A stretch of DNA of 64,000 bases from Roseburia sp. 499 (GTDB lineage Bacteria; Bacillota; Clostridia; Lachnospirales; Lachnospiraceae), in the NCBI RefSeq assembly GCF_001940225.2, contig NZ_CP135164.1, forward strand, positions 2,356,001 through 2,420,000, in the 5' to 3' direction. Every line of letters starts with the position of its first letter. Within the stretch, counting starts at the first letter, position 1. This document shows, one piece after another, positions 1 to 29,681 of the stretch. The translations under genes were made by a program, and so were the position numbers. The notes below the pieces were generated by a model, which did not search any database, was not told where the DNA came from, and worked only from the letters and a program-made list of their open reading frames with translations.

Positions 1-428
1 TAGAAAAAAGCCATATTCCTAATTCTATCCGCCCATCTCTTTAACACTTCCAAGGTTACGCCTTGTTTTTCAATCAATTCCCGGATTGTCCCATAATGAT
101 CAAAGAAATTCACTCCATTACCCTGCTTTAAAGATAATTGCCTAAGCAGTTCATAGATAAGCTTTGTATCATCCAGCGAGGATTCTGAACATTCATTTTG
201 TGACAAAATTCCATACATCAAATCAATACTGTATGCAAATTCTTCATCATGATTTCCTCTAAGAAATATCACATTTTTCGGATTCGACTCAATCCATTTT
301 AACATTTCAAAGCTTTGAGAACCTCTGTCAATATAATCGCCGGCAAAAATCAATGTATCCTCATCAGCAAACGCAATCTGTTCATGCATTTTTATCATAT
401 CATCATAGAAGCCATGAATGTCGGACAT
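1..428 (-). CDS. PPP-family metallophosphoesterase, 3' end cut by window edge
   Basis: The visible N-terminal part carries the calcineurin-like phosphoesterase signature: SDIHG near the start, GDYIDRG about 30 residues on, then RGNHDEE. These residues bind the two metal ions in PP2A-like Ser/Thr phosphatases and Ap4A hydrolases, so it probably removes phosphate from proteins or nucleotides in the cytoplasm. The first ATG is at 428, but no ribosome binding site precedes it. An AGGAGG at 452-457 lies 8 bases before an in-frame ACG at 441-443, where an ATG would give the usual MSYYVMSDIHG start, so the true start may be non-canonical or mutated. It is the last visible gene of the kinase/phosphatase module. 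The C-terminus lies outside the window. Confidence 0.8.
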   Translation of the reverse strand, partial: MSDIHGFYDDMIKMHEQIAFADEDTLIFAGDYIDRGSQSFEMLKWIESNPKNVIFLRGNHDEEFAYSIDLMYGILSQNECSESSLDDTKLIYELLRQLSLKQGNGVNFFDHYGTIRELIEKQGVTLEVLKRWADRIRNMAFF

Positions 429-455
429 TACATAATAACTCGTAGAAATCGCCTC

Positions 456-650
456 CTAGAACATTTTGTTACCTGTTTTCGCTAATATAAGTGCATCATC
501 ATAGCTACAATTATTCTCTCTTGCATATTGCATAATTGCACGAGCCAAATATGGATACTTACGAGGATCAACAAATCCATAATTTGCCTCAACCAACGCT
601 CTATGGTAAAGTGCCTGAAGTTTTTCATCGTTAATATCAAATAATCCCAT
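456..650 (-). CDS. hypothetical 64-residue protein
   Basis: I do not recognise this small acidic, helix-rich protein. It has no membrane segment and no cysteine pair; it has one cysteine near residue 48 and several tyrosines. A plausible ribosome binding site (AAAGGAAG) precedes the ATG. Its stop codon overlaps the AGGAGG that should serve the following phosphatase gene, so the two are probably translationally coupled. It sits between the macro-domain gene and the phosphatase and is likely transcribed with them. No function is assigned. Confidence 0.6.
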   Translation of the reverse strand: MGLFDINDEKLQALYHRALVEANYGFVDPRKYPYLARAIMQYARENNCSYDDALILAKTGNKMF

Positions 651-678
651 AATGTTTTCTTCCTTTATTTATTATTTC

Positions 679-2442
679 TTACATATCTGTATATAGCTTA
701 TCTACTTCACCTTCATAAATTCTATCTGTCTCATTGTCAAATAAAACCCATTCAACAAGGTCAAAGCTATCAGGATTTTCATTCATGAATCTGCTTACTG
801 TTTTTACTGCAATCTTTGCTGCCAGCTCAACCGGAAAACTATACACTCCGGTTGATATGGATGGAAAAGCAATCGTTCTTATTCCATGTTCAAGTGCCAA
901 TTTCATAGTATTAAAATAACAGCTTGCAAGTAGTTCCTCTTCCTTACTTCTGCCGCCATTCCAAATCGGACCCACAGTATGTATCACATAATCGCATGGC
1001 AGATTATATGCTTTTGTAATCTTTGCCTGACCTGTCTCACAGCCATGAAGAGTTCTACACTCAGCTAAAAGTTCCGGTCCTGCTGCCCTGTGAATAGCAC
1101 CATCAACTCCACCGCCTCCTAAAAGAGAGTTATTTGCAGCATTTACGATTGCCTGAACATCTGTAATTTTCGTAATATCACCTTTTACCGTTTTGATTAA
1201 ATACATCTTTTGCCTCTTATCCTTATTTTTCAATGCCTCATACCACATATCAATGACTTCATTTGCAACCATGTGATTACACCCGTATGCCTTTACCAGC
1301 TTATCTTCCAATCTATGCATATGCTGACTGGACATATTCTGAATTTTGTTTATCTCCTGTGGTATTCCTTCTTCCAAACATCCAAATAACATATTTCTCT
1401 TTAATTTATCATCCGGAATATAATCTAATAACAGTGCCTTAAATAATCTCATATCCGTTAATATGTCTGGATATTTGCTTAATATAGTATTCAAGACATT
1501 GTTCTTCATAATGCTATCGTTCTGATTTGAAACCACTTCATAAATCAGTCTAACATGATTTCGATATATATGTTCCCCTGATGCTTTTAGTCGTTTTTCA
1601 AACTCTGGTTCAAGCTTTTCTTTGAGATAAAGGTAGTTTCCCATCCCCATACTTACACACTTCATCCCTTTAGGTTCCTTTGTTATAGTGTTGGGAAATC
1701 TACTTTTCAATTCATCCTCTAATCTCTCATTTTGTATATAATTAAATCTATACAGCCACATGGTATTTCCATGAATTGTGATAATCGTAATCTCACCAGG
1801 GCACCCCATTGCTCCAGGATGAGCAAATGTCCAAGCTATAATATCAGATTCAGCAATCTCATTAATATTCTGCATTGTCAAATAAATGGGGTTATTTGCT
1901 CTGTTCTGTATCAATTTCTTTATTTGCTCCTTACTGTCATTTTTTCTCTGAATATTCATAACAAATATCGGATCAGCCTTCACTATATCCATAATCTCAT
2001 CTCTTGTAGAATCCCCAATATTCACATAAAACATCCCACAGTACCGGCATTTTTTCAGTGAATACTTTTCCTTAAATAAATGTTCATTACATACCAAGCA
2101 ATGATTCAAATCCTCACTTTTTCTGTACTTATACGGATTGTCGCTTCTCTCAAGCTTCTCTTTTTTCGGTTCAAGACTCCTCTTGTATTTTTCAATATTT
2201 TCTCTTTCAATCTGTTCAGCATTTTTTCTGCTCTCCTGTAGTTTCTTAAAATCCTCATACGACTCAGAATAGTCCATACAATGACTCGAACCTACACATT
2301 TTCCAGAATAATTTGCTCTCCATCCACATTGACCATCTCTATAGTGAATGCATCTTGCCTTGTGTCTTCGTGGATCATCTTCTTGCTTCTTCGCATATCC
2401 TATATGCCAGGGTGTGTCTGGCAATTTGTTGTTATCTACCAT
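679..2442 (-). CDS. macro-domain protein with N-terminal zinc-binding region and shared helical domain
   Basis: The protein has about 587 residues. The last 175 residues are a macro domain: [25 protein letters not shown], the GPIW loop and SISTG match the ADP-ribose pocket of MacroD/YmdB-type O-acetyl-ADP-ribose hydrolases, so it probably binds or hydrolyses ADP-ribose derivatives. The N-terminal 120 residues hold two cysteine clusters: one spaced like CIHY..CGW..KC...HC, and a CxxC-x(n)-CxxC zinc ribbon around residues 115-140. Residues about 314-412 are a helical domain that also occurs at the N-termini of the LRR and helicase proteins of this island. A TTG lies in frame at 2469, but the ATG at 2442 has the better ribosome binding site (GGTGAAAGC). 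The cellular substrate is unknown. Confidence 0.85.
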
Positions 2443-2472
2443 GCTTTCACCAACTTTCTCTGTATGCAATTT

Positions 2473-2709
2473 CTATTGCCAACCTGCCTGCTTACCTACT
2501 TCATCGCCTATGATAAAGCCAAGTATTGCAACAAAATAATTGATATTTTTAGTCATCAATCCAATTACACAAATTACAATAATTGCACCTGTTCCAACCC
2601 ATATTGCTGAACTCCCTTGATTGTGATTCTTTCTAACCTTATGTAACAACCATTGAAGAAAAATAGTACATATAAAAAATCCTACTGCATATAGTATTAT
2701 CTCCAGCAT
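2473..2709 (-). CDS. small membrane protein, three predicted helices
   Basis: A 78-residue hydrophobic protein with three probable membrane segments: near residues 3-22, 36-52 and 57-72. The C-terminal GDEVGKQAG tail is polar. I chose the ATG at 2709 because a G-rich Shine-Dalgarno sequence (GAGGGGGGA) precedes it; an upstream TTG at 2760 would overlap the helicase gene. It lies between the helicase and macro-domain genes on the same strand with almost no spacing, so it is probably part of that operon. Small membrane proteins in defence operons can be effectors, but nothing here proves that. Confidence 0.7.
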   Translation of the reverse strand: MLEIILYAVGFFICTIFLQWLLHKVRKNHNQGSSAIWVGTGAIIVICVIGLMTKNINYFVAILGFIIGDEVGKQAGWQ

Positions 2710-2726
2710 AAAATCCCCCCTCTTTA

Positions 2727-5700
2727 CTATATCTCTTCCGGCTTTAAAAAGTGCCCACAATTACATCTGATATATGGACCATACTTACCTAATCCACCTC
2801 TCAATTCACCGCCGTCCTTCTTCGGGCATTTTACATTATGTGAATTGATGTACCAATTCATCAAGTCAACTGTAAGATATTTCGTCTCTTTGCAAGCTTT
2901 ATTGGAACATTTTAGATATGCTGTTCCCCGAGCATTTTTAGCAAGCACCATATGACTTTTACATGCCGGACAAAATTCTTTTTTCTCAATAAATGCTCCA
3001 AGTCCGTAATTTGATATTGCTCCACTATCAGCAGTATTTCCACTAATTGCAGCCATTGTACCTTTTTTCTTTACTAATTTTCTTGTATTTTGACCAACGA
3101 CAATGGTTTCTAATTCCGTTAAAGCCTTAATCATGTCGACTGTATTTTTCCCTTTAATTCTTATCATCGTATGTACGACAGTAATCATGGAAGTGGTCTT
3201 GTCAACTTGAAATTTCCACTTTGCTGTAGGCAATCCATACCATGCAACCTCATCATCAATAACAATAAGCGGAAATGTTGCATTTTCCGTTCCAAAACAG
3301 TATTCCTTCCATTGTCCTGGAAGATTGGCATAATCATTGGATTTCATTTTAATATCAATGCCTCTACTATCTGCATCATCCAGTATTTCAAATACTTGAT
3401 TTTCAGTTTCCCTTAATTCACCACTTGGAAGAGAAACTACTGTCTGCCACTTTGCCTTTCTCATATCTTGCTCGAACATTGCAATTGCATCTTGTTCATT
3501 CATAAAGATATTAATCATCCTACCAGGATTTACCGCCTCGATGTATGGCTGAAGTGTTTTATCATGGTTCTCTATTACATGATGCTTTCCATTCTTAATA
3601 TGCTGTAATAACTTATAGAACACATGATTTGTACCCTTAAAGACATTCTCCCAGAATCTGGCATTTGCAACTGTAATTACTTTTCCCTTACCTCGTGTAA
3701 TTGCTACATTTATCAATCGTGCTACCTGGTTACGATCTTTTCCCATCAGATACCCTACAGCACTCTTTGGATAACTCTCTACTGCATCAAAAACTATCAC
3801 ATCGGATTCTGAACCTTGGAACTGATGTACTGTTGCACAACTTACAGTAGTCGTCCCTTTTGCATAATAATCCTTTATCATTGCACGGATTAATCTTGTC
3901 TGGGCAGCATATGGGGTGATAATTCCAATGGTATCAATATTATTCTGCTCTGCCTTAACCGCAGTCGAAAATGAAATAACAGCACTAAGTATATTGAATC
4001 TGGAACCATCTGTGTTCTTATCTGCTGCACAATATGTTCCGGCAAGGTCTATTAAGTTTAATGCATCCCCCGGCAATGGCTCACTCTTAATAACAGCATC
4101 TCCTTTATGTAACACAGAAGGATGATCCTTTAAGAGTCGGTTATAAATGAATTTATTTGGAAATTCTGATATTGCCGGTGTCATTCGCCTTTGCTCATTC
4201 AGCATGACAAGCCAAGGATGCCAATACATATTTCCCTTACCATCTACTATCTGTAAATAAGAGAATATGTCCACCTGCAGCACATGTGCATCCGGATTCT
4301 GAGAAATAGGTGCCAGCTGTCTAAAGTCACCTACACACATAAACTTTTCTTTCGCCAATGCTGCTGCCGCTATTACCTGCGGTACATATGCCATCGAAAC
4401 CTCATCAAACATTACGAGGTCAAATTGTCTCTCTTCAAACATTGGATCAACCGTTGCTCTTGAAATAGTTGTACCAATCACCTGTGCTCTCTGCACATAT
4501 CTTCTTTCTTCTTTTCTTATCTCACTGCGAAGTTCTTTGATTTTATGCTCGACTTCATCATACTCTTTAGACTTCATGCTATTTTTGGCACGCAATTCGT
4601 CTCGTTTTGCAGTCAAATGATCCAGCTGCCTTGCATAACTGTCGCACTTGCTAAGTGTATAATTAAAGGATGTTGCATATGGATTCTGAGCAAGCTCATC
4701 ATCTCTTACATATCCGAAACGCAAAATCTTTCCATCCTCAAGATAAGACTGCATATCCGTATCCAACATCTCAACAACTTTCTTGATTACACCATCCACT
4801 GATACATTACTGTGAGATACAATAAGAACAGATTTGTTCTGAGCAATATACTTCTTAGCAATCTTTGCCATTGTATATGTCTTACCGGTTCCGGGAGGTC
4901 CCCATACCGTTACAATATCATCTGTTTCCAACTTTCTTTCTACAGCCGGTTGTCCTTTCGGTACACTGGCAATATCAGTATCTGTAGATAAGTCCGGACC
5001 TTCTTCCATGATTTTAATTGCAAGCTTATTGATATTCGGATTAAGAGAGTTCATTCTCTTATCCAAGGCTTCAAGAAGCTTCCATGGTTCTACCATCAAA
5101 TGAGCTGAACTTACCTTATCAGTGAGATCCCTGTCTAATAACAAAATCATCTGAAAATCTTCACATGATAAAACCGTACCAACTGCTCTAAGACCTCCTA
5201 CCGTTTCTACCACCACCGGAGCATCATCCGGAAGATGTAGTTCTGTTTCCATCTCGAATGAATATGTATAGATTCCCTTATCACTTTTATTTAATTTGAT
5301 TCCGTTGACAATCTTGTATTTCTTACCTTTTCCTAATTTAAGGAAATGAATTTCTCTTCTTAATGCATCGGAATATTCCTTTATATCAGAGGAAGTATAT
5401 GCAGGTTGTTCATTCGTTGCTGAAACATTACTACCCTCCACCGCTATAGGATTGATATTCTTAACTACGTTATCCATCGTCTTGATAAGTAATCCAACAA
5501 TATCAATTGTTCTGTTATATTCTTCGTCTGTCATCTGACATACTGCTACCTGCATCAACATAGTTGTCTTAGATATGTTAATCTTATATGATGTCGTAAT
5601 CCTCTTATGATTACTGCACAGGAAAACAAATTCAATAGTTGCTCCGCTGACATAAATTTTTTTATCCTCTACAGGAATACTGATTGTTACACTCTTTGAC

Positions 5701-6260
5701 TTATCATGTGTCAACAATTCATAGTCCATTCTTGAAGAATGCATTGTCCCAAATTTATCAGTAATAATGCATTTTTCAAGCACGGTATCAACTTCCTCGC
5801 CTTTATTGATATACATAAACTTAAATGATGCGTCTACCCGATCTACAAACTCTTTGATTACAGGTAAAGTCATCTTGAAATGTGAGTCATTGAAGTTTTT
5901 GGATATAACAGGCTGGTATGGACTCTTTACCTCTGTGTTGACTCCTTTATCTACAAATGCTAATCGCATAACTTCAAGAACATTTTCCCTGACACTACTC
6001 TCTATCGCCTGTGCCATCAAAAACTTATCAATATTAGAAAGTCCCATTTTAAGCTCTCTTTCACTCTTAAATGGGACTCCCTTCATAGCCTCTCCAAGCC
6101 CAGCCTGAAAAAGCATCTGCATAATATTCTTTTCGACTGAATAATCAGCTAATAAATCATTGCACAATGCGGCACACAATTTTCTGTTCTGATATATTTC
6201 ATATCCATATTCATCTGTTATCTTCTCAAATATCTTTACAAGTTCTGTTGTATGCCACAT
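2727..6260 (-). CDS. SF1 (UPF1/DNA2-like) helicase with PLD-like region and C-terminal zinc ribbons
   Basis: A protein of about 1177 residues. Residues 1-105 are the helical domain shared with the LRR and macro proteins. The helicase core follows: Walker A GPPGTGKT near 455, DEVS Walker B near 620, GDFRQLAP, the EQRRM arginine motif, then HQFQGSE near 815 and VAITRGKG (motifs V and VI). Residues about 910-1005 resemble the phospholipase-D-like region found in DNA-processing helicases. Two C4-type zinc ribbons end the protein (CPAC...CSNKAC; CPKK...CNCG). Helicase-PLD proteins are known partners of TerY-P kinase/phosphatase modules, so a role in unwinding or processing DNA or RNA is likely. 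The start at 6260 has GGAG upstream; an earlier ATG would overlap the transglutaminase gene by over 100 bases. Confidence 0.85.
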   Translation of the reverse strand: MWHTTELVKIFEKITDEYGYEIYQNRKLCAALCNDLLADYSVEKNIMQMLFQAGLGEAMKGVPFKSERELKMGLSNIDKFLMAQAIESSVRENVLEVMRLAFVDKGVNTEVKSPYQPVISKNFNDSHFKMTLPVIKEFVDRVDASFKFMYINKGEEVDTVLEKCIITDKFGTMHSSRMDYELLTHDKSKSVTISIPVEDKKIYVSGATIEFVFLCSNHKRITTSYKINISKTTMLMQVAVCQMTDEEYNRTIDIVGLLIKTMDNVVKNINPIAVEGSNVSATNEQPAYTSSDIKEYSDALRREIHFLKLGKGKKYKIVNGIKLNKSDKGIYTYSFEMETELHLPDDAPVVVETVGGLRAVGTVLSCEDFQMILLLDRDLTDKVSSAHLMVEPWKLLEALDKRMNSLNPNINKLAIKIMEEGPDLSTDTDIASVPKGQPAVERKLETDDIVTVWGPPGTGKTYTMAKIAKKYIAQNKSVLIVSHSNVSVDGVIKKVVEMLDTDMQSYLEDGKILRFGYVRDDELAQNPYATSFNYTLSKCDSYARQLDHLTAKRDELRAKNSMKSKEYDEVEHKIKELRSEIRKEERRYVQRAQVIGTTISRATVDPMFEERQFDLVMFDEVSMAYVPQVIAAAALAKEKFMCVGDFRQLAPISQNPDAHVLQVDIFSYLQIVDGKGNMYWHPWLVMLNEQRRMTPAISEFPNKFIYNRLLKDHPSVLHKGDAVIKSEPLPGDALNLIDLAGTYCAADKNTDGSRFNILSAVISFSTAVKAEQNNIDTIGIITPYAAQTRLIRAMIKDYYAKGTTTVSCATVHQFQGSESDVIVFDAVESYPKSAVGYLMGKDRNQVARLINVAITRGKGKVITVANARFWENVFKGTNHVFYKLLQHIKNGKHHVIENHDKTLQPYIEAVNPGRMINIFMNEQDAIAMFEQDMRKAKWQTVVSLPSGELRETENQVFEILDDADSRGIDIKMKSNDYANLPGQWKEYCFGTENATFPLIVIDDEVAWYGLPTAKWKFQVDKTTSMITVVHTMIRIKGKNTVDMIKALTELETIVVGQNTRKLVKKKGTMAAISGNTADSGAISNYGLGAFIEKKEFCPACKSHMVLAKNARGTAYLKCSNKACKETKYLTVDLMNWYINSHNVKCPKKDGGELRGGLGKYGPYIRCNCGHFLKPEEI

Positions 6261-6279
6261 AATGCTCACTCTCCAATAC

Positions 6280-8132: not shown

Positions 8133-8146
8133 GAAATCCCTCCTTT

Positions 8147-10213: not shown

Positions 10214-10719
10214 TATGGAATCTGCCTCCTTTGCTTCACAAGCTGTAATACTTCATATAATAGATTTCCATCATCAACATACATATTGTATGTTTTACTG
10301 CCAAACTGCAGTTCACAGGCATCTACATACGGAGTTACCGCTGTTAGATATCTATATGTTTTATCAAACCCCTTTTCAGAAGCTTGAAATACGATTCTCT
10401 GATTAGTCACATACAGGATTCCCCGATGCTGTACAAGCTCACCATGCTCAATAGGCTTCGCCACACCCACATTCCAACGATTGCCTTTTAACAATCCAGG
10501 TGTACTGTGTCCCACATGCCGGTATTGCTTTACTACCTTGATTTCAAGGTTGATTGCTTTATCAATATAATGGATCTTCTCACCACGCTTGAGAAATAAG
10601 CTGTCTGTATTCAATATCGGTAATCTTCCTGCACGAATCTCATTCTTAGCCGCTGTAGGAAGTATGGAATTTATCTTAGGTGGCTGATTATTGCCAAATA
10701 TTGCATCCAATAAGCCCAT
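10213..10719 (-). CDS. PH/GRAM-like domain protein
   Basis: A 168-residue protein whose C-terminal half (GILYVTNQRIVF, then a strand-rich region ending in a helix) looks like a bacterial PH or GRAM-type domain. The N-terminus has a short hydrophobic helix (MGLLDAIFG). Such domains bind lipids, peptides or other proteins; here it may place or sense a ligand for the kinase, to which it is translationally coupled by a TAATG overlap. The ATG at 10719 has AGGTGATATGT before it and sits about 20 bases after the -10 box of the palindrome-controlled promoter, so it appears to be the first gene of that operon. Confidence 0.7.
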   Translation of the reverse strand: MGLLDAIFGNNQPPKINSILPTAAKNEIRAGRLPILNTDSLFLKRGEKIHYIDKAINLEIKVVKQYRHVGHSTPGLLKGNRWNVGVAKPIEHGELVQHRGILYVTNQRIVFQASEKGFDKTYRYLTAVTPYVDACELQFGSKTYNMYVDDGNLLYEVLQLVKQRRQIP

Positions 10720-10739
10720 ACATATCACCTCTTTCCTGT

Positions 10740-14266: not shown

Positions 14267-14286
14267 GCTAATTTTCTCCATAACGT

Positions 14287-20693: not shown

Positions 20694-23600
20694 TTATATC
20701 TTTGCCAGCAAATCCACTTTCAATGCTTTCTTACCTTCCTGTGCAACTTCCACGCCTTGGAACTTCGCATAATTTACCTTTACACCATCATCCAGGTCAA
20801 TCTCAATTCTCTGATTGGCTACATGGGCAATGGCTTCATCATATATCCTCATCTCTGCAAGCTGTTTAGTGTACTTTGTTACCGCCTTTGTGGCTTTCGA
20901 TTTCTCTGATGACGATGTCGCATTGTCAATCGTATACTGTGCACTCTGCATTGCAGTTTCTACGTACTTCTGCGCCTTATGGAGATAATCTGTTCTAACT
21001 CTACCGACTGTATCAGCATCATATCTGTGTATATAAATTAAACATTTAAATGCATTATTCTTTCCAGAACTAAACAACCAATATATTGGTCTTTTCCCCG
21101 AAGTAGATACAGAATTTGTGTTACAATGATAAGTGTAAAACTCGTTTATAAAATAATAACGAATTTTTTCCCTTGCTGTATTTCCTTTCGTTTCCAAGAC
21201 TTCAGATATATAATAGAGATTATCATCTAATACATTATATCCGTATACAGATATAAGCCATTCACATAATCTACTCACAATATCATCAGCAAAACATTCT
21301 TCATCTGTTATTGGTATAATTCCATATTCAGCAGCCGAAAAACGAGATGATTTATTTTCAATCCATTCTCCTCCAGCAAAATAAATGCCTTCCTTTTCAA
21401 CTGTATATCTACCCAACATACATCCAACTGCAAATGACAACAAATTCTGTATGCATTTCCTTTTTTCAGCCAAATGAATTGTTACTTCTTTTTCATCAAC
21501 ACTTGCTGAAACGGAATTGCTCAAATTAAAAGCATTAATGAATATATCGTTTATTCTTTCTTCATTTTCCTTTACTTTATTGAACCTATCATTGCATTCC
21601 TTTTCCCATTTTCCATACATATCAGAAATAAGAATATTACAACCCAATTCATTTTTACATGGTACTAAAGGGTCTCCACGATAATCCCATGAATTTTCAA
21701 ATGAATCCCAATCTTCTTTTGACAATCGTATACATTCATCTACAAGTTGCTCTACTTCTGTTTCATTAATTCTATCTATTACATCAATAGGCAAAGCTGC
21801 TATAGTTCCTGGTGGAAAATTAATAGTGGGATTTAAGATTTCCAAATAATTCCTACACACTATACTGTTCAAATAACCTAACAAAACTTTATATCTATCA
21901 CTATATAAAGCTAGCCCTGCCATATTAGGAATGTATCCTTGAGGCATATACCTAAATGATGTTTTTGCAATGGTAATACGTGACCATGTAACACCTTCCT
22001 GAAAGTATTTATCTTTGCCCGTCAATGAAGCTTTCTTAAATGCTTTTAATTCTCTACCATCTTGCTCATAATTTAGCACCTCAAAATTATTGCCATACCA
22101 CTTTCTGAATTCACCACCTTTTGTATGCTTAATCCATTTAGCTCCACTTTCATCTTTTATGTTTGTTTTATTTATATCTACTTCCGTCCAATACCGTATA
22201 AATCTTTCGTTATCACCTGTTTTAAGTCCTTCCTTCACATATGCTATATCTGATATTTTTAATCCGCCAAATGCCGATATCATTTCTTCATTTGCCCAAT
22301 ATGCCAAATTCATTTCTGGAACATACTTAAATATATTTTGCTTTTGTAAAAATGTGGTTTTATTATCTGCTAATAATTGCAATTTTCTTTCTACATCTTC
22401 AACGGCACTACTAGAAGAAAATAACCTTTTATAGAATCCCTCATATTTTTCCACTAACTGCCCTTTTATTACAAAACTTGTTGTTCCAAAATCTGCCCCA
22501 AAAACGCCTCTTCCAAGATGTAGCATATTAATAATAGTATAATTTTCCAAAATTAATTTTCTAAGTTGTGCATAACTTTTTATGAACATCCAAACTGGTA
22601 TATTAATCATAGCTAAATAGCCTTCTGGCTTAATTGAATGCAAGTAGGATTCCATAAATACTGTGCTCATATCATTTTTTGAGCTAGGATAATTCATTTT
22701 CAACATTTCGCTTAATTTATCATTCATCCCACCATTTCCCATATACGGCGGATTTGTCACAGCAACATCATATTTTCTATTAAGAAGCAATGAAACTTTG
22801 TAAAATTCAAACAATTGTTCTTGTGTTTTAGTAAGATGTAATGTTTCAAACGACACTTGTTGTATTTCTTGCATATCATTTATAAAATCATATAGTAACG
22901 TGTAATCTAAATTTTCTATTCTGATTATCGAACCATACTCTTTAGCATCAACAAAAGCCATTAGTAATTTTCTTATTTGAGATAATGCCTTGTCTCTCTT
23001 TTCTGCTAACATGGTGACTCCAAAAAACTGCAATTGTTCCTTCTTAAACTCATTACTTTCACTTATTGGAAAAACATTTAGTTCAAACTTTTCCTCCTTA
23101 AGCAATGTCAGAAATCTCCTATTTACCCCTCTTCCTTTCATCATTATCGCAAAATATGCCAACTGATATGCTCTCTTATCTATATCTATTCCATGAATAT
23201 TATATTTTACAATCTTTAAAGCAGCATCTCTCTTATCATATCCGGCACTTTCATAGATATCCATTAGCACATCAAACATCGCAATCAAGATATGTCCACT
23301 ACCCATACAAGGATCAATGCAGCTAATTTCTGTTGGCTTTAGATCTTTGTATGTAGTTCTGATTTCTGCCAATTTTATATTCACTTCGTCTTCTTGCTTT
23401 GCTTCTGGAAGATAATATTTCCAGCCAAATTTCTCCGCTGTTGTCTTTTCATCTGTACTTGGATCAACTGCTCGCAAATGTTCAATCCAGATTCTACCTA
23501 CAGAGTTTTCAACCATGTAACGAACAATCCAGTCAGGAGTAAAAAGCTGTGTTGCTGCAGGTATTCTCTCTTTTGTGATTTTTACATTCTTTTTCAATTT

Positions 23601-24344
23601 AGCAAAAGTATCATCTTTTAATTCTGTATTGTAATACTGATATAGCCATCCTATAATCTCCACCTGTCCGGTAGGCTGTCCATCTTCTCCAATTGTATTT
23701 ACATTAAAATCTTCTTCTGGAATTCCTCTCTTTTCATCTACAAGCATACGAATTACATCATCTTCATTCGTAAATGAGATGTTAAGAAGCATTTCTGTAT
23801 AGTCTTCTGTCTCTTCAAAAAGTCCCGGCAACACTTCATGAAGCAGGTTACACTGTTTGATAAAAAGCATTCTGAATAAATCATCAAGCCTGTTGTTCAT
23901 CTTTGCATCAATGATTTCTTCTCTCTCTTTATCTGTGAAATCCCAGTCAATTTCTGGAGCCATAGTTACCACATCTGGCTCATTCTTTCCCTCTTTTTCA
24001 GAAGAAAGCACACGAACTCTTACAGGATACATATAGTCGTTTACTTCCATAAAACGGATAGCACAGATTCTGTTAAACCATGTATATGCCACTTCTTCCA
24101 CTACCGCTTCAAAGCCTCTTGCATGAATCTGGTCTACCAGTTTTCTTCTCTGCTCACACTGTTTTTTGTTAAGTGTTACCTCTGTTCCTGCCGCTGTCTT
24201 GTATACCTCAAAATCTGCACCTTTTGTAATTGCTTCACTGCAATTATCCGGTGTAATTCCAAGCATACCAGCTTTATCCGTAACGGATGCTATCAGCTTA
24301 TTTCTTGCATCTATTGCAAATTTCTTAATTGCATTTTTGTTCAT
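20694..24344 (-). CDS. pglX: BREX type I adenine-specific DNA methyltransferase PglX
   Basis: A 1216-residue N6-adenine methyltransferase. Motif I is DPCMGSGH (about 344-351), which binds S-adenosylmethionine; the catalytic motif IV is NPPYMGNG (about 535). The N-terminal 300 residues and the C-terminal target-recognition half match PglX, which marks host DNA at a non-palindromic site so that BREX spares it. GGAGG precedes the ATG. The middle of the gene (about 21000-23400) is clearly more AT-rich than its two ends, which suggests exchange of the recognition part. It follows brxC after 25 bases. Confidence 0.95.
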   Translation of the reverse strand: MNKNAIKKFAIDARNKLIASVTDKAGMLGITPDNCSEAITKGADFEVYKTAAGTEVTLNKKQCEQRRKLVDQIHARGFEAVVEEVAYTWFNRICAIRFMEVNDYMYPVRVRVLSSEKEGKNEPDVVTMAPEIDWDFTDKEREEIIDAKMNNRLDDLFRMLFIKQCNLLHEVLPGLFEETEDYTEMLLNISFTNEDDVIRMLVDEKRGIPEEDFNVNTIGEDGQPTGQVEIIGWLYQYYNTELKDDTFAKLKKNVKITKERIPAATQLFTPDWIVRYMVENSVGRIWIEHLRAVDPSTDEKTTAEKFGWKYYLPEAKQEDEVNIKLAEIRTTYKDLKPTEISCIDPCMGSGHILIAMFDVLMDIYESAGYDKRDAALKIVKYNIHGIDIDKRAYQLAYFAIMMKGRGVNRRFLTLLKEEKFELNVFPISESNEFKKEQLQFFGVTMLAEKRDKALSQIRKLLMAFVDAKEYGSIIRIENLDYTLLYDFINDMQEIQQVSFETLHLTKTQEQLFEFYKVSLLLNRKYDVAVTNPPYMGNGGMNDKLSEMLKMNYPSSKNDMSTVFMESYLHSIKPEGYLAMINIPVWMFIKSYAQLRKLILENYTIINMLHLGRGVFGADFGTTSFVIKGQLVEKYEGFYKRLFSSSSAVEDVERKLQLLADNKTTFLQKQNIFKYVPEMNLAYWANEEMISAFGGLKISDIAYVKEGLKTGDNERFIRYWTEVDINKTNIKDESGAKWIKHTKGGEFRKWYGNNFEVLNYEQDGRELKAFKKASLTGKDKYFQEGVTWSRITIAKTSFRYMPQGYIPNMAGLALYSDRYKVLLGYLNSIVCRNYLEILNPTINFPPGTIAALPIDVIDRINETEVEQLVDECIRLSKEDWDSFENSWDYRGDPLVPCKNELGCNILISDMYGKWEKECNDRFNKVKENEERINDIFINAFNLSNSVSASVDEKEVTIHLAEKRKCIQNLLSFAVGCMLGRYTVEKEGIYFAGGEWIENKSSRFSAAEYGIIPITDEECFADDIVSRLCEWLISVYGYNVLDDNLYYISEVLETKGNTAREKIRYYFINEFYTYHCNTNSVSTSGKRPIYWLFSSGKNNAFKCLIYIHRYDADTVGRVRTDYLHKAQKYVETAMQSAQYTIDNATSSSEKSKATKAVTKYTKQLAEMRIYDEAIAHVANQRIEIDLDDGVKVNYAKFQGVEVAQEGKKALKVDLLAKI

Positions 24345-24369: not shown

Positions 24370-27300
24370 TCAGCTCAATGTAATTATTGTGTCTTCTTCC
24401 AGTTCATTCATCAATTTCTGCTTCATCTCGGAAAGGAACTTATCAATATCCTGCTCGGTCTCAATCGAATATGTTCTAGCCCCTGCCACATTGCTGATAG
24501 AGACATTCTTACGTCTCTTTGTCTTTACTTTAGTCGGTACCGGAGTAGGTTCAATCGGTTCTTTACCAGGTACTATCGGTGCAACAGGTGGTTCCGGTGC
24601 AGGCTGATGTGCCCTCTCATATTCATCTATCTCATCCAGACACTTGATTTTTAAAGTGTCACTTTCCAGCTTGATATTCTTAATTGCAGCGATATCACTA
24701 GATGTTCTGAGTTTCTCCCAGATTTCATCAAATCTCTGATTGATACGAGGACGGAGTACTTCCGCAAATGGCTTAGTATCCAATACTTCTTTCACTTTAA
24801 GGAAGTCGTCATGTACTAATGGATCCATGATAGCTGCTTCCTTTTCAAGCAGTCCCATATGAAGTTCTTCAAATTTCTTATTTAATTCCGGTAATCTCTG
24901 AATCTTACCGAAAGGCTTGCTGTCCTTCACGATAGTCTCTATCTCTTCGACTACTTTTAACAGCTCCTGGTCACTTACATAAGTCTTACTGTTGCCAAAA
25001 TATGCAAGATTCTTCACTGCCTCTTCAAAAATTTTTCTCTGGTCTCCCTTAAAGAAATCAAATACAGGTGCAGTATCTTCTGCATCATCAAGTAGGTCAT
25101 CTCTCTTCATATCTACTGTCTTGAAGAACTCTGTAGGCTCATTGATATCAAGGATTTCTGCAAGTCTCTTTCTTGCCTCTTCCATCAGTCGCTTACAAGG
25201 ATATTTCGGATTGATTCTGTATTCTACAAGGATGTCATCGTATACTTCAACTTTATCCTTCGCTCTGTTCTTGAAGTTGCTCATGATTTTGTCATCATCA
25301 TCACTGGATACAGTAAATCCAAAGTAATCCTTCATAATTTCTTTTGCAGAACGAATCTGTCCGTCCGTTGCTCTTTCTCTGATGTCTATCAAGAGTTTCT
25401 CTACATATTCACGCTTTGTAATATATCTGACCAGTTCATCCTGATTCGTTGAAAGTAATGACAGGCTCTGACTGTTAAGAGTAAGGGACACTCTTCCCAG
25501 CTTGAACAACATTGCAACAAGCCACTGCACATCCTTTGGATCAAATCCATAAGGTGCTGCACCAAACTTATCCTGTAATGACTTAAGGGATGTCTTCATA
25601 TGTCTGGCATTATTTAATCCGATTACCTGTACCACTTCCTCTAAAGCAAGCTTATTCGGTGTGGTATCACTTGTGCCAAGGAAACTCATCTGACCATCGT
25701 TATGTTTAAAAATGGCACTAATATCTGAAAGCTCAGGTGCTGTCTCCATATAGGTGAGCTTATTGTATTTCATTGCTACGAGCTTACCGAGTGCTTCATT
25801 GATTCTTGTTGCCGGCTCCTTAGCTGAAATGGTAGCCTTATCGCCATTTACATAGATGTCGGCATTCTTTAATGCATCCTCAATAAAGATTCGGATTCTG
25901 TCCTTCTTCTCAATACGCTCATCCTCTTTTGCCCTACGGATGCTGTCAAAGCTGCCTCTGGCTCCGGACGCATTTTTGTTAAGGAATTTATATATCTTGA
26001 TGGATTCTGTAATCTCATCAAGAAATGTACTGTCATTTGGCAACTTCACAATCACACTGCTTTCCTGTGCAGAAAGCAGACGAAGTGCAGAGTCTGCATA
26101 ATCTCCGCCATAAGGTGTAATAACTGTCACTCCGATATCGTTAGACTGATTGCCCTTGAAGAATCGGTCATCCACCTTCTGGTTGAATGGGAATAAGTAA
26201 CGACTGCTATAACGGTATTTCTTCTCCGTATAGATTTCCTCGAAGATAACTGTAGACGCTTCTCCGATGATTTCTCCCATCTCTACTGACTCATTATTGA
26301 TAGCATTATTGATTTCCTGCTCCTCATTTGTCAGGAAAATGTATATTTCACCATTCTTCTGTACAAGTGTCTCTTTAATCAGTTTCTTTAATGACTCCTC
26401 TATCTTAGAACGGACTTCAATTCTGTCATCATCAATATTTGAAATCATAAGTGTAGTAAGATTATCTACATTTGCCTTAATTTCCTTGACATATTTAATC
26501 ATAAAGAGAACTTTCAAAAGCTCTACATCGAACTCATCAAGCTTACTATTATTCTCTGCATCTGAGATTACCTGACTGTGCTGGTGGTCAATAAACTTAT
26601 GCAACGGATCATAGAAGAAGCTAAACGGAATCAATACCCCATCCTCTTTATCCATTACTCTGATTGCCGACTCCTGAAACAGTGCAAGCATAGAACGTGA
26701 CTGATCCGACAAATGCTTTCCACTTGCGCCATGTGTTCTGACCGCAGTAAGTACCTGTCCTAAAAGATTGAACTGATATGGTATAAACGGATAGCAGTCT
26801 GCAAAATCTGCCTTATCTGCATACAGCTTCTTGTCTGCTGTATCCGCTGTAAATGTAATAAGATTCTTGATAATTGATTCTTTCTGCTCATAGAGCAGTC
26901 TGAGTGTCTGTGTTGCTGTATCATTCTTTGCAAGCACACGCTTACGGATTACTTCGTCAACATTGGATGCTGAAAGAGAAAGTCTCGTATCAAAACGTCC
27001 TTGAATCTTAGAGAAGTCATTTCCCTTTGTCTTTGTAATAGAATCAATATCCTCCTGACTTGTTACGATAACCCATGCCTTACCTTTGCAGGCTGTTCCA
27101 AGGTCTTCTACAATTGTCTGGAGGTTGAGCATAAGCTGTGTGTCATCTGCAATATATTGACCGATTTCATCCACCAAGAAGATAACATGATGATTCGGTC
27201 CTTTCTTTGCACAATATTCCTGCACAAGTGATACGAACTTCTCGATACTGAGGTCATAGCTGCCCTTTGCATTCTTGCACCAGTTGCGGGCTGCTTCCTC

Positions 27301-27960
27301 ACTCATGAAATCCATCTCGACTAATGTCTTTACTACTTTATCCTGAATAACTGCAAATGCCTGTCTCTTTTTATCCCAAGGTGCTCCTGCATTCGCCTCG
27401 AACTTCTCTTTGAACTCTTCAAATCTGCCCTCGTTATCCAACTGGCGTTCAAATTCTGCAAGATAAGGTATTGAACCACAATAACCCTGCATCTCATTGA
27501 ACACTTTCATAAATACTTCAACGATAGCCTCCTTACCGGAGCCTACCTTTGCAGAACCCTTTGAATCAATATTAAAAAGCATGACGTCTGACTCAATTGT
27601 TCCAGCCTTTGTCATCTCTGCAATAAGCATCGGATCTTCTATCTTCTTACCATCTGTAAAATACTCAATGGCTCTTTTACCTTCTACTGTGCTGTTTTTT
27701 AATAAATAAGACAGTATTTTTAGGAAGTGAGATTTACCACTTCCAAAGAATCCGGAAATCCAGACACCCATCTTATCTGTATATCCATCTACACCCTTTT
27801 CATAATTGTTGAAGAAATCTCTGAAATGCTTCAGAAGTTCCTTTGTCACTACATATTCATCTAATTCCTGATATACATTTTCTTCATCCGACTGACCTAC
27901 TTTAATAACACCCTTGATGTCACGATCAATCTGCTTTTCAAACATATTTTTAATCTGCAT
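24370..27960 (-). CDS. brxC: BREX P-loop ATPase BrxC
   Basis: BrxC, about 1196 residues, the large P-loop ATPase of BREX. Walker A reads GFFGSGKSHF near residue 70 and Walker B is VIFLVDEIGQY near 260, followed by a VTSQED sensor. A Pro-rich linker near the C-terminus (APEPPVAPIVPGK) separates the core from a basic tail. The ATG at 27960 has AGGAGGAAATACA upstream; a start at 28023 would overlap brxB. BrxC is needed for blocking phage DNA replication in characterised type I systems. The arrangement brxA-brxB-brxC-pglX is canonical. Confidence 0.95.
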   Translation of the reverse strand: MQIKNMFEKQIDRDIKGVIKVGQSDEENVYQELDEYVVTKELLKHFRDFFNNYEKGVDGYTDKMGVWISGFFGSGKSHFLKILSYLLKNSTVEGKRAIEYFTDGKKIEDPMLIAEMTKAGTIESDVMLFNIDSKGSAKVGSGKEAIVEVFMKVFNEMQGYCGSIPYLAEFERQLDNEGRFEEFKEKFEANAGAPWDKKRQAFAVIQDKVVKTLVEMDFMSEEAARNWCKNAKGSYDLSIEKFVSLVQEYCAKKGPNHHVIFLVDEIGQYIADDTQLMLNLQTIVEDLGTACKGKAWVIVTSQEDIDSITKTKGNDFSKIQGRFDTRLSLSASNVDEVIRKRVLAKNDTATQTLRLLYEQKESIIKNLITFTADTADKKLYADKADFADCYPFIPYQFNLLGQVLTAVRTHGASGKHLSDQSRSMLALFQESAIRVMDKEDGVLIPFSFFYDPLHKFIDHQHSQVISDAENNSKLDEFDVELLKVLFMIKYVKEIKANVDNLTTLMISNIDDDRIEVRSKIEESLKKLIKETLVQKNGEIYIFLTNEEQEINNAINNESVEMGEIIGEASTVIFEEIYTEKKYRYSSRYLFPFNQKVDDRFFKGNQSNDIGVTVITPYGGDYADSALRLLSAQESSVIVKLPNDSTFLDEITESIKIYKFLNKNASGARGSFDSIRRAKEDERIEKKDRIRIFIEDALKNADIYVNGDKATISAKEPATRINEALGKLVAMKYNKLTYMETAPELSDISAIFKHNDGQMSFLGTSDTTPNKLALEEVVQVIGLNNARHMKTSLKSLQDKFGAAPYGFDPKDVQWLVAMLFKLGRVSLTLNSQSLSLLSTNQDELVRYITKREYVEKLLIDIRERATDGQIRSAKEIMKDYFGFTVSSDDDDKIMSNFKNRAKDKVEVYDDILVEYRINPKYPCKRLMEEARKRLAEILDINEPTEFFKTVDMKRDDLLDDAEDTAPVFDFFKGDQRKIFEEAVKNLAYFGNSKTYVSDQELLKVVEEIETIVKDSKPFGKIQRLPELNKKFEELHMGLLEKEAAIMDPLVHDDFLKVKEVLDTKPFAEVLRPRINQRFDEIWEKLRTSSDIAAIKNIKLESDTLKIKCLDEIDEYERAHQPAPEPPVAPIVPGKEPIEPTPVPTKVKTKRRKNVSISNVAGARTYSIETEQDIDKFLSEMKQKLMNELEEDTIITLS

Positions 27961-27973
27961 TGTATTTCCTCCT

Positions 27974-28561
27974 CTACACCAGACGGAATGCCCTGTAATA
28001 GTTGTGTGAATCCATCGTTCCAAATAATTTCAAATCCTGTCCGCTATACTCTCCCGGATAGAAAAGCACTACCGGCACACTGTCAAGCACCTGATGCAGG
28101 TTATTTAAGATGTTGTGGCTTGCGATTATCGGATGGCACTTGCCTACTCCGGTAAGAAATACCACACTGTCCGTCAAATCTTCCTGCAATATTCTTGATA
28201 TGATGAGATTCAGTTCATTTGTTTCATCCAGTCCCAATGTCTCTACAAGGCTGTCTGCCATCTCAAAAAATCCATTCTCTTTTTCCAAATCAAAGAATGC
28301 TTCCAGATAACCTTCCTCCTGCAATATCTCAATCATAAGATGAAACAGGTCAAACTCAACTATTCTGAAATCTTTGTTTCCGTTGTTTATTCTATCCTTA
28401 AGGTATGCTATATGATTTCTCACATACAGCTCCTCTCTTGGATCATAATCGAATATATAATATCCGACTTCATTTCCAAGTCCTTTATTCTCTCTAAACG
28501 ACTTCTCTGATATTTTGTCTTCTATCTGATTCAGTCTATCATCCAAACTTAACTTTGCCAT
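27974..28561 (-). CDS. brxB: BREX protein BrxB (DUF1788)
   Basis: A 195-residue protein matching the DUF1788 family: the N-terminal LDDRLNQIEDKI helix, a YYIFDYDPREEL strand, a GVGKCHPII segment and a PVVLFYPGEY strand near the C-terminus. BrxB is a core component of type I BREX, believed to contact BrxC and PglZ; its biochemical activity is not established. The ATG at 28561 follows the brxA stop after 2 bases, so translation is coupled. Confidence 0.93.
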   Translation of the reverse strand: MAKLSLDDRLNQIEDKISEKSFRENKGLGNEVGYYIFDYDPREELYVRNHIAYLKDRINNGNKDFRIVEFDLFHLMIEILQEEGYLEAFFDLEKENGFFEMADSLVETLGLDETNELNLIISRILQEDLTDSVVFLTGVGKCHPIIASHNILNNLHQVLDSVPVVLFYPGEYSGQDLKLFGTMDSHNYYRAFRLV

Positions 28562-28563
28562 GC

Positions 28564-29163
28564 TCAGACTCCTTTCACAGCTTTCAAGTATTCTCCCAGT
28601 CCATTTGCAGTCAGCAATTCCTCTGTACGATAGTCAATGTGAATTGGCTTGATTGTTCTTGGTTTTGCACTACTTTCAAGTAATCCCGCCTCAAACATCA
28701 TTCTAGTAAAGCACTGTTTCAGTTTCCGTATTGCTGTATCCGTCCATCCAGCCACCACATCACTCTGCAACGCTTTATCCGAAAAGAATACATTCAAATC
28801 CCTGTCTGTGATTTCCTTTTCTCCCAGTCTGAGCTTTTCATCATACACTTCATGAAGAAATTCAAAAAATAGTCGGCTATCCATAAGGATTGCAATTAAG
28901 TTTAAAATCTTTGCTGTCTCCACATCACAAGTGGTAAAAGCCCGAAGCACTGCTTCCGGTAAAGCAGATACTCTACGATAAGTACCATTCAATACCTCAT
29001 ATGCACGATATTCTGCTTTTACTTGATAGATATTCTCTTCCCAGGCTATCTTTCGAATATCCGCCTTACTATATCCATCCAATATGTATCCAGCGGTCTT
29101 TCTGGACTCCTGTAGCCAAAACAATTTTGATGTAAGTCCTGCACTATATACTAACTCTGCCAT
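28564..29163 (-). CDS. brxA: BREX protein BrxA (DUF1819)
   Basis: A 199-residue DUF1819 protein, mainly helical, with YSAGLTSKLFWLQESRKTA at the N-terminus and VVAGWTDTAIRKLKQCF near 145-160. BrxA homologues have a NusB-like or DNA-binding fold and are core members of type I BREX. It is the first BREX structural gene, 20 bases after the small HTH regulator gene, and overlaps no neighbour. Its order and length are typical. Confidence 0.93.
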   Translation of the reverse strand: MAELVYSAGLTSKLFWLQESRKTAGYILDGYSKADIRKIAWEENIYQVKAEYRAYEVLNGTYRRVSALPEAVLRAFTTCDVETAKILNLIAILMDSRLFFEFLHEVYDEKLRLGEKEITDRDLNVFFSDKALQSDVVAGWTDTAIRKLKQCFTRMMFEAGLLESSAKPRTIKPIHIDYRTEELLTANGLGEYLKAVKGV

Positions 29164-29183
29164 TTTGCACTCTCCAACAAGGT

Positions 29184-29393
29184 TTATTCTTCATCTTTCA
29201 CAAACTCACAGATATCGCTAATATCGCAATCCAGATATGTAGCAATCTTGAGTAATACACTCATAGACACTTCTCCATCCTTACGCATCTTTGTAAGGGT
29301 ATTCGGAGCAATATCTACAGCCTTTCTCAAATCGGCTTTACTCATCTTTTTGTCTACCAATAACTTCCATAATTTATTGTAACTTACTCTCAT
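29184..29393 (-). CDS. small Cro/C1-type HTH regulator, probable BREX regulator
   Basis: A 69-residue protein of the short Cro/C1-type helix-turn-helix family (YNKLWKLLVDKKMSKADLRK, then a recognition helix TLTKMRKDGEVSMSVL and a C-terminal D-rich end). It is the first gene after the BREX promoter and probably represses its own operon; a GAGT/ACTC palindrome overlapping the predicted start of transcription is a candidate operator. I chose the ATG at 29393, preceded by GAGGT, over a GTG at 29399. Confidence 0.85.
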   Translation of the reverse strand: MRVSYNKLWKLLVDKKMSKADLRKAVDIAPNTLTKMRKDGEVSMSVLLKIATYLDCDISDICEFVKDEE

Positions 29394-29442
29394 TCTCACA
29401 CCTCGTGGCTTCTTCTATAGACATGTTATATTTGTCACAATT

Positions 29443-29454
29443 GAGTAAAAACTC
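29443..29454. promoter_or_regulatory. palindrome GAGTAAAAACTC, candidate operator of the BREX operon
   Basis: A 12-bp inverted repeat (GAGT-AAAA-ACTC) lies about 10 bases downstream of the BREX -10 box and so covers the expected transcription start. It is a natural place for the HTH protein encoded immediately downstream to block transcription. The match is short and could be chance. Confidence 0.4.
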
Positions 29455-29463
29455 GCTTTTTAA

Positions 29464-29492
29464 ATTATAGTACAAAACGCTTATTCTTGCAA
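29464..29492 (-). promoter_or_regulatory. sigma-A promoter of the HTH-BREX operon
   Basis: On the minus strand TTGCAA (29492 to 29487) is separated by exactly 17 bases from a perfect TATAAT (29469 to 29464). The first gene, the HTH regulator, starts about 70 bases downstream. The gap 29400-29681 otherwise holds AT-rich DNA and a short GGCATT/AATGCC inverted repeat (29616-29631) of unknown meaning. Confidence 0.7.
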
Positions 29493-29681
29493 TCAATATA
29501 ATCGCATTTTCTTGCGAGCTTTAATTATTTTCATTTAAAAGTCATTAGTTTTTGTGAGAAAGAAATTCATAACCTTGCTTTTGAGTATTTCTGTCAATAT
29601 TTTTGCATTAAGCTAGGCATTGCATAATGCCAAAACGTATAGTTAAAAGGCAGAGTGCCTATCCTGCGCCCTGCCCATTCT

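Follow-up and report, generated by a model that had tools for sequence, protein, structure and literature searches.

A BREX Locus with an Exchangeable Core Between a Second VWA Gene and a BrxL-Linked Kinase-Phosphatase Cassette in Lachnospiraceae

The stretch analysed here, called the window, comprises the 64,000 nucleotides at positions 2356001-2420000 of the single-contig 3.38 Mb genome of Roseburia sp. 499. It contains a type I BREX system (brxA, brxB, brxC, pglX, pglZ and brxL), followed on the same strand by genes for a leucine-rich repeat (LRR) protein, a PH-like protein, a kinase, a VWA protein, a PP2C phosphatase and a transglutaminase-fold protein. The brxL gene goes with the kinase cassette, and brxABC, pglX and pglZ form the exchangeable part. 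A conserved frame, consisting of a second VWA gene (VWA2) at one edge and brxL-LRR-PH-kinase-VWA-PP2C-transglutaminase at the other, encloses this core. The gene order recurs in other genomes, the linked BrxL proteins share a clade, the core between the two edges is swapped or lost, and the frame genes are under purifying selection. We read the whole as a composite defence locus, in which the frame surrounds an exchangeable type I BREX core and a phosphorylation module is tied to the BrxL arm; we put the probability of this reading at about one half (0.52).

Recurrence of the Cassette

An alignment of 24 PH-like proteins was scanned against a genome contig collection and gave 12 loci, six of which (L005-L010) carry brxL, LRR, PH, kinase, VWA, PP2C and transglutaminase genes in the order of the window. 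L008 and G322 of the family sample are one locus. With G130 (L023/L025) and G806 (L091/L092), the intact loci are nine: window, L005, L006, L007, L008=G322, L009, L010, G130 and G806. Nine loci were found whose PH-like protein is full-length and shares at least 50% identity with that of the window, and all nine keep the order, counting L010, whose contig begins within brxL. The hosts are Lachnospiraceae NE2001, several Blautia, Hominisplanchenecus, Mediterraneibacter, G130 and the window genome, with L006, L010 and G806 from members of the genus searched around Blautia L009. The first-pass annotation had found the physical union of type I BREX with a TerY-P triad unusual, and would have taken it for chance adjacency if the two were never together elsewhere. 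The union holds, since nine intact loci share the order. Its check for conserved co-occurrence in unrelated hosts is borne out only in part: the order recurs in eight more genomes, but these hosts are several genera of one family.

Decayed copies exist as well. In G250 the core and BrxL are intact, and of the LRR gene only a truncated remnant is present. A Lachnospira metagenome contig (L013:3374-4832) holds fragments of BrxA, the end of the LRR gene and PH, in that order, within 1.5 kb. Dropped before counting were L013, L014-L016 (Legionella, distant PH matches) and L020/L024 (a 36% PH match), none of which has the triad. Partial or weak BrxL matches without an examined locus were also left out, as was the partial BrxL of L025 in favour of that of L023, which is the same locus.

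In five pairs taken from the window, L005, L006, L007 and L009, the cassette genes have no internal stops. Synonymous divergence (dS) is 1.6 to saturated in four of the five pairs and 0.3-1.2 in the closest, L007-L009, and nonsynonymous divergence (dN) is 0.02-0.40. The frame genes are under purifying selection. The transglutaminase gene is present in all eight other intact loci at 42-55% identity. For the remaining genes, comparison was made with the stretches read of nine other loci, i.e., eight intact and one decayed. A 95-aa open reading frame (ORF), here orf95, has 51-54% identical copies after the transglutaminase gene in five of them, and the zinc-ribbon gene upstream of brxA (29682..30503) has a 58-64% identical copy in four. 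Some copies have received inserted genes: a 260-aa adaptor protein before the transglutaminase in L005, a TerY_C-type protein at that place in G130, and a 204-aa ORF after the kinase in G806. In G322 (L008:3026-8941), four CRISPR-like genes, recognized by eye, lie between LRR and PH and include a 1358-aa Cas9-like protein and three small ones.

BrxL and the Exchangeable Core

At E up to 1e-30, and counting short or weak relatives, BrxL was matched in 48 of 397 genomes of the family. Thirty BrxL loci were examined; the cassette accompanies BrxL in three intact loci (window, G322 and G130) and in decayed G250, and 26 are cassette-free, some with flanks that end at contig ends. The kinase (E up to 1e-15) occurs in seven of the eight cassette-type genomes tested, decayed G250 being the one without it, and in none of the 26 cassette-free BREX genomes. 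In a BrxL tree of 34 sequences, the eight cassette-linked proteins (window, L005, L006, L007, L009, G322, G130 and decayed G250; L010 and G806 left out) fall on one side of a branch with an SH-aLRT support of 100, against the 26 cassette-free ones. In the PglZ tree, by contrast, which like the former is a quick search and has several long branches, the seven cassette rows (again without L010 and G806) fall in two places and a single clade is rejected (p-AU 0.037, approximately unbiased test). One clade holds window, L007, G322, L009 and G250, and L005 and G130 are sisters among cassette-free PglZ proteins.

Pairwise identities give the same division. Between L005 and the window, the frame proteins are 69% (VWA2), 86% (BrxL), 60% (LRR), 77% (PH), 78% (kinase), 80% (VWA), 67% (PP2C) and 51% (transglutaminase) identical, whereas the core proteins are 32% (BrxA), 43% (BrxB), 47% (BrxC), 46% (PglX) and 37% (PglZ) identical. 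For G806, frame identity is similar to that of L005, and the core stands at 94/90/83/55/74%. The swapped core of L005 contains two consecutive pglX-type genes (L080:10859-17096; G776 is the L005 locus). The core may also be lost. The genome of L006, a metagenome assembly of unstated completeness, has no BrxC and no PglZ match, and only a 47-residue pglX remnant and a Schlafen-type gene lie between its VWA2 and brxL. Its cassette genes are open, with dN of 0.07-0.34 and dS of 1.6 to saturated against L007 and L009. In six of the nine intact loci, core genes are on the same contig (in G322, brxA and brxB were not read); two others are cut by a contig end. Both the slot between pglZ and brxL and the region after the transglutaminase gene vary among loci. 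The first-pass annotation had grouped brxL with the BREX half, and this boundary has to be moved: by the two trees and the identities, brxL belongs with the kinase cassette.

Cassette-linked BrxL is 68-75% identical to cassette-free BrxL. At residues 384 and 535, the cassette-linked proteins of the 34-row set have Tyr and the cassette-free ones Phe. A docking or phosphosite signature in BrxL was considered and set aside, as seven fixed differences, two of them Phe-to-Tyr, are too few to interpret.

VWA2 marks the other edge of the frame. Copies 69-75% identical to that of the window lie upstream of the BREX locus in L005, L006, L009, L010, G322 and G806, so that VWA2 is at the BREX locus in seven loci, the window included. 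In L010 it is on the contig that carries brxABC, and in G322 it is on the same contig as the locus, the stretch between not having been read; in L007, the region further upstream was not read for VWA2. G130 has only a 53% relative on another contig. The contig of G250 ends just past brxA, and VWA2 was not found elsewhere in that genome. No VWA2 lies near BrxL in the 26 cassette-free BREX genomes, draft contigs limiting this test; seven of them have a relative of 49-53% identity on another contig or, in G376, 1.1 Mb off.

The Kinase Triad

In ten sequences, the window included, the kinase has invariant K46, D141, N146 and D160 as well as C309, C311, C330 and C333. We take the K/D/N/D residues to be functional kinase positions and the cysteines to form a zinc ribbon. 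The zinc-ribbon kinase, the TerY-like VWA protein and PP2C are encoded by adjacent genes on one strand. Because TerY-P is described as a kinase with a zinc ribbon, a VWA protein and a PP2C (passages of PMC11090510), the triad fits that description. No TerY_C-type protein was found in the window or in L005-L010; one is present in G130 and in the relatives L011, L012, L063, L065, L066 and L067. This absence lowers the case for TerY-P membership and does not exclude it, since the description, in the passages concerned, does not require TerY_C (PMC11090510).

The kinase (E up to 1e-30) occurs in 14 of the 397 family genomes, three of which also have BrxL. A class-wide sample of 391 genomes added four kinases outside the family, with BrxL in none within the stretch read. 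Both the family and the class draws are samples, and the sampling of loci centres on one family. In a kinase tree with near outgroups only, likewise a quick search, the eight linked kinases are on one side of a branch with support 98; the linked PP2C rows are likewise on one side of a branch, with weaker support (94). On these trees, one branch of the wider TerY-P family joined BREX, probably once, with G130 as the least settled member. BrxL-linked cassettes were found in one family only and probably have one origin.

Other members of the kinase family were also seen. The L007 genome has a second, more distant kinase on another contig (G778:C132:10762-12015). In L063:10729-15148 (G060), a triad has an LRR-like protein between kinase and VWA, and its neighbours look like housekeeping genes by eye (electron transport and others). 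Thus, not all TerY-P triad members are in defence islands.

Gene Organization in the Window

The features of the locus are as follows, all on the minus strand, in the direction of transcription.

30713..31372, minus: VWA2, stand-alone VWA protein (Pfam VWA); outer (5') edge of the conserved frame
29682..30503, minus: zinc-ribbon protein (Pfam), membrane-type by eye, between VWA2 and brxA
29492-29464: promoter-like site upstream of the helix-turn-helix (HTH) ORF, a consensus match only
29184..29399, minus: small HTH-like ORF at the head of the run, HTH by eye
28564..29163, minus: BrxA (Pfam 215 bits; PADLOC)
27974..28561, minus: BrxB (Pfam 137 bits; PADLOC)
24370..28023, minus: BrxC (three BrxC Pfam domains; PADLOC 1447 bits)
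20694..24344, minus: PglX/BrxX type I methyltransferase (NCBIfam BREX_1_MTaseX, 1266 bits; cut-off 500)
19248..20648, minus: 466-aa accessory protein without a match in Pfam or PADLOC; PD-(D/E)XK-like motif recognized by eye
17707..19182, minus: Schlafen/AlbA_2 protein with HATPase-like C-terminus (Pfam)
14979..17522, minus: PglZ (Pfam 180 bits; PADLOC 833 bits)
14444..15013, minus: ORF in the variable slot between pglZ and brxL, predicted membrane protein from hydrophobic stretches recognized by eye; no family match reaches a cut-off
12185..14281, minus: BrxL, MCM-type AAA+ with Lon-like C-terminus (Pfam; PADLOC 1108 bits); first gene of the BrxL-TerY-P unit
11883..12182, minus: 99-aa ORF in the brxL-LRR gap, no family
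10785..11852, minus: LRR protein with N-terminal adaptor domain of ~97 aa, linker and LRR_5 solenoid (Pfam LRR_5; adaptor profile; AlphaFold2 model)
10213..10785, minus: PH-like protein, start probably ATG 10719, no Pfam match (AlphaFold2 model)
8915..10213, minus: Ser/Thr kinase with C-terminal zinc-ribbon cysteines and a further tail (Pfam Pkinase)
8147..8899, minus: TerY-like VWA protein, DxSxS motif present (Pfam VWA; sequence)
7302..8153, minus: PP2C phosphatase (Pfam PP2C_2)
6280..7287, minus: transglutaminase-fold protein (Pfam Transglut_core); last cassette gene common to all intact loci
2727..6386, minus: SF1 (UPF1/IGHMBP2-type) helicase (Pfam AAA_11/AAA_12; PADLOC MkoA 197 bits)
2473..2760, minus: orf95, membrane-type ORF of 95 aa (identity to copies in other loci)
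679..2469, minus: macro-domain protein (Pfam Macro) with a second adaptor copy at residues 330-426 (adaptor profile, E 6.7e-31)
1..428, minus: PPP/calcineurin-type phosphatase (Pfam Metallophos), extending left of the window (L003:9646-10428)

From 29163 down to 12185, brxA, brxB, brxC, pglX, the 466-aa gene, the Schlafen-type gene, pglZ, the membrane-protein ORF and brxL follow one another, and past brxL the same strand continues with the 99-aa ORF and the genes from LRR to macro. Pfam, NCBIfam and PADLOC matches identify BrxA, BrxB, BrxC, PglX, PglZ and BrxL as a complete type I BREX system with open frames. At the junctions between brxA and the macro gene, neighbouring genes overlap or lie at most 184 bases apart. 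PH and kinase genes overlap by 1 base, and the LRR-PH gap is ~65 bases if PH starts at 10719. A consensus scan found no minus-strand terminator-like match at these junctions, its match counts being near the shuffled expectation (promoters 59 vs 68 and 40 vs 46; terminators 15 vs 8 and 6 vs 5.5). The one-strand run of six BREX genes into LRR and further genes as far as the PPP phosphatase, with an HTH gene at its head, had been described in the first-pass annotation and is borne out here. Its gene list was incomplete, lacking the 466-aa protein, the Schlafen-like protein and the ORFs at 14444-15013 and 11883-12182. It had also placed a PPP phosphatase at the left edge; the Metallophos match agrees with this, but the gene runs past the edge and is followed by an ADP-ribosylglycohydrolase gene.

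The left part of the run is particular to the window. None of the helicase, macro, PPP and ADP-ribosylglycohydrolase genes has a counterpart in what was read of the nine other loci, and the same holds for the 466-aa protein, the Schlafen-type protein of the window and the ORFs at 14444 and 11883. The exceptions are a 22%-identity Schlafen match in L006 and macro matches at 13-14% coverage, which are the adaptor domain. A conserved system including helicase, macro, PPP and ADP-ribosylglycohydrolase is therefore rejected (0/9 in the stretches read), and the earlier view of helicase, macro and PPP as one unit with the triad falls with it. The name helicase-PLD is likewise unsupported because no HKD motif (H-x-K-x4-D) exists in the helicase or in the rest of the 24 proteins tested. 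The helicase has an IGHMBP2-family NCBIfam match below cut-off and, by eye, zinc-finger-like cysteines at its C-terminus.

The Adaptor Domain and the PH-Like Protein

A profile hidden Markov model (HMM) of the adaptor was built up over four rounds, with residues 1-98 of the LRR protein of the window as its only starting sequence. It gave 36 matches among the loci examined, many of them overlapping stretches of one locus. The domain occurs in nine loci (window, L005-L010, G130 and G250) and in the BrxL-free triads L011, L012, L063, L065 and L066. The profile had no match in the triad loci L064 and L067 or in any cassette-free BREX locus. The position of the domain differs among proteins. LRR proteins and a DEAD-box helicase of L011 have it at the N-terminus, proteins of L005 and G130 have it at the C-terminus, and the macro protein contains it internally. 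In the window, both the LRR and macro proteins have it, and L011 and L012 have three adaptor proteins per locus. All 82 retrieved homologues of the macro protein contain it (82/82), and through this domain a link of the macro protein to the conserved system is possible. Against Pfam, the copy in the window matched nothing at E up to 1, and comparison with solved structures gave chance-level matches only. In the AlphaFold2 (AF2) model of the LRR protein, the adaptor is a block of six helices at low to modest confidence (pLDDT 44-70), followed by a disordered linker and a confident LRR solenoid. Residues 1-105 have 215 homologous proteins, the best 120 of which were detailed. In one database protein, P0205, the N-terminal part of the LRR protein is fused to the kinase, apparently by a natural deletion.

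The PH-like protein also has 215 homologues, the best 120 of 215 being detailed, and most aligned homologues begin at the position of ATG 10719. A PH topology consists of seven strands and a C-terminal helix. The AF2 model has these elements at a mean pLDDT of 77, in agreement with the first-pass label, and no solved relative was found at E up to 1.

Relation to Known Systems

With six core genes, a PglX of the BREX-1 family and a Schlafen protein, the locus resembles type I BREX. BrxL is described as a component of type 1 and type 4 BREX and Schlafen-type proteins as known BREX accessories (passages of PMC12839542). It differs in that brxL is followed by the conserved LRR/PH/kinase/VWA/PP2C/transglutaminase set; the main text of this 2026 BREX survey, supplements aside, never mentions LRR, PP2C or transglutaminase (PMC12839542). 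Type 2 BREX, or Pgl, offers another parallel, being a BREX with a Ser/Thr kinase, PglW. However, PglW is described there as one large kinase-nuclease protein in a system without BrxL (PMC12839542), whereas in the window a separate kinase, VWA and phosphatase adjoin a type I system.

The triad is like TerY-P in its tandem of VWA, PP2C and a kinase with C-terminal zinc-ribbon cysteines, and it differs in the additional LRR, PH-like and transglutaminase genes and BrxL, and in that no TerY_C-type protein was found. A precedent for TerY-P carried within a restriction system is CoCoNuT, where such triads are described as a frequent, non-core part of Types II and III-A, with BREX often in the same superoperons (passages of PMC11090510). 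In contrast, no McrB/CnuB or CnuH/CnuE was among the Pfam and PADLOC matches of the window proteins tested, and the partner here is BREX via BrxL. Among the literature matches listed, titles and abstract openings report no union of BREX with TerY-P, subscription journals lying mostly outside the coverage.

Two further comparisons concern single proteins. Mokosh combines a helicase with a kinase domain and a PLD nuclease, and Pfam holds the described families of effector-associated domains (EADs). In the helicase of the window, the helicase part gives a match to the MkoA profile (197 bits); the locus differs from Mokosh in that the kinase is a separate gene, the HKD motif is absent and the helicase is window-specific cargo. 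The adaptor domain resembles an EAD in being a small predicted helical domain found in at least two proteins of one locus with different fusion partners, EADs being domains common to proteins of adjacent genes (passages of PMC7159879). Unlike EADs, it has no Pfam match in its window copy at E up to 1 and is found with TerY-P, not with vWA-MoxR systems.

Interpretation and Alternatives

To our knowledge, how type I BREX is switched on without harm to the host, and what role BrxL plays, are open questions. In the composite reading, the kinase, PP2C and VWA would form a reversible phosphorylation switch, and the LRR protein, via its N-terminal adaptor domain, and the PH-like protein may be a sensor or scaffold. 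The VWA and PH-like proteins would organise the phosphorylation and the LRR protein would inform it. Two kinds of target could then have their activity set by the switch: BrxL, which is an AAA+ DNA motor, and effectors that carry the adaptor, the macro protein among them. Self/non-self marking and first-line restriction would fall to the BREX core, with the frame gating the BrxL-dependent response or serving as its backup. Retention of the kinase-side genes with brxL in relatives whose other BREX genes are swapped or lost hints that phosphorylation may control part of this defence. A more specific form of the idea is a phospho-controlled BREX variant, in which different cores are slotted into the frame and a kinase/phosphatase switch fed by the LRR/EAD-like adaptor gates BrxL, so that signalling is shared and recognition swapped; this we propose tentatively, at somewhat less than even odds. 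As brxL is tied to kinase, phosphatase and LRR protein while brxABC-pglX-pglZ is replaced, the locus is a natural experiment. It suggests that BrxL is an output module, regulated and separable, and it opens phosphorylation control of BREX to direct testing. Effectors of TerY-P systems could also be sought by sequence through the shared adaptor domain.

The main competitor holds that an ordinary type I BREX and an ordinary TerY-P are two independent defence layers kept together by linkage on a mobile element. It is the strongest of the alternatives and in our judgement still unlikely. TerY-P alone, in another of its members, is described as defending against T7-like phages (a passage of PMC7699616), and several results count for this competitor or otherwise against the composite reading. 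Kinase and BrxL co-occur in 3/397 family genomes against 1.7 expected by chance, i.e., without genome-level enrichment, and the PH-like protein is in 4/397, one of which is a 36% match without the triad. The kinase was found in one of 12 genomes around G322 and one of 61 around L005, each time the centre genome itself. It was found in five of 64 around L009, four of which have the BrxL cassette and the fifth, G829, a triad with no BrxL in the stretch read. L011/L012 and L063 and, more distantly, L064-L067 likewise have related triads and lack BrxL as far as they were read; L012 begins at its PH gene with the upstream part unseen, and the L011 genome has a BREX-type core on another contig. Since the association, judged by the BrxL clade, probably arose once, the nine loci are not nine independent gains. 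In the VWA tree the linked rows do not come together, although a single clade is not rejected (p-AU 0.20), and distant outgroups move the G130 VWA and PP2C beside BrxL-free triads. L006 takes different places in the BrxL and kinase trees, so BrxL is exchangeable relative to the cassette, and in G250 the cassette has decayed beside an intact BrxL and core. Only seven fixed residues separate cassette-linked from other BrxL, with no clear docking site. Unrelated cargo occurs in the loci, partly recognized by eye: CRISPR-like genes in G322, and SNF2 and HATPase-like genes in L005 and G806. Linkage leaves unexplained, however, why the cassette retains brxL and not the whole BREX when the core is exchanged or disappears, and why the other edge keeps a second VWA gene; moreover, the order has persisted although most pairs are separated by a dS of 1.6 to saturation.

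Another alternative, milder and in our view improbable, is that TerY-P has captured BrxL, so that BrxL, LRR, PH, kinase, VWA and PP2C form a complete machine and the BREX core is a replaceable passenger. The open brxL and cassette of L006, in a genome without BrxC or PglZ match, speak for it, as does the BrxL clade, which tracks the cassette while PglZ does not. However, L006 is the one clear core-less case. It is not the sole locus with part of the core unseen, as G130 (99% complete) has no BrxC match and the L010 genome no PglZ match. The G130 contig starts beside pglZ and the L010 locus is divided between two contigs, one ending in pglX and the other in brxL, and since contigs end inside these loci, gap and loss look alike there. 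Core genes do accompany most intact loci, as counted above, and BrxL is still near ordinary type I BrxL. Finally, chance adjacency of two modules in one genome, for which the clustering of defence genes on mobile elements and the window-only helicase-macro-PPP part could be cited, is hardly credible, being refuted from brxL to transglutaminase by the same order in eight further genomes with diverged sequences, although it may apply to the helicase-macro-PPP-ADP-ribosylglycohydrolase genes.

The Mobile Element and Its Surroundings

A Tn916-type integrase lies left of the window, and a CD1115-family coupling protein and a CD1110-family VirB4 are also present. Together they support an integrative conjugative element, as the first-pass annotation had proposed. 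The virB4-type gene looks split (window 49833-54870), with its C-terminal part at 49833-50741 and a weak VirB-family match at 53374-54870. A reverse transcriptase gene at 50870-52723 lies between the parts, as though a group II-type intron interrupts virB4. The conjugation region also encodes a 2567-aa protein (37649-45352) with methylase-like and helicase matches.

That the cassette has its home on a phage or a plasmid was considered and rejected on scans of viral contigs, phages and plasmids. The PH-like alignment has no match in viral contigs, and phages gave a single weak kinase match. Among plasmids, 2347 records match the kinase, only three of them covering 80% of it, and two of the three were examined. 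A Prevotella plasmid has TerY_C-kinase-VWA-PP2C, with BREX neither annotated nor matched within 19 kb; an unannotated Methylomonas plasmid has kinase, VWA and PP2C matches and no BREX match within 19 kb. On the Prevotella plasmid (L096:2073-12446), the order is HTH, TerY_C, kinase, VWA and PP2C, and two ADP-ribosylglycohydrolase genes lie just upstream on the opposite strand, a pair that echoes the macro and ADP-ribosylglycohydrolase cargo of the window. Right of the window (L004:5189-10594), an 1801-aa LPXTG-anchored surface protein has 13 SpaA-type stretches and a thioester domain.

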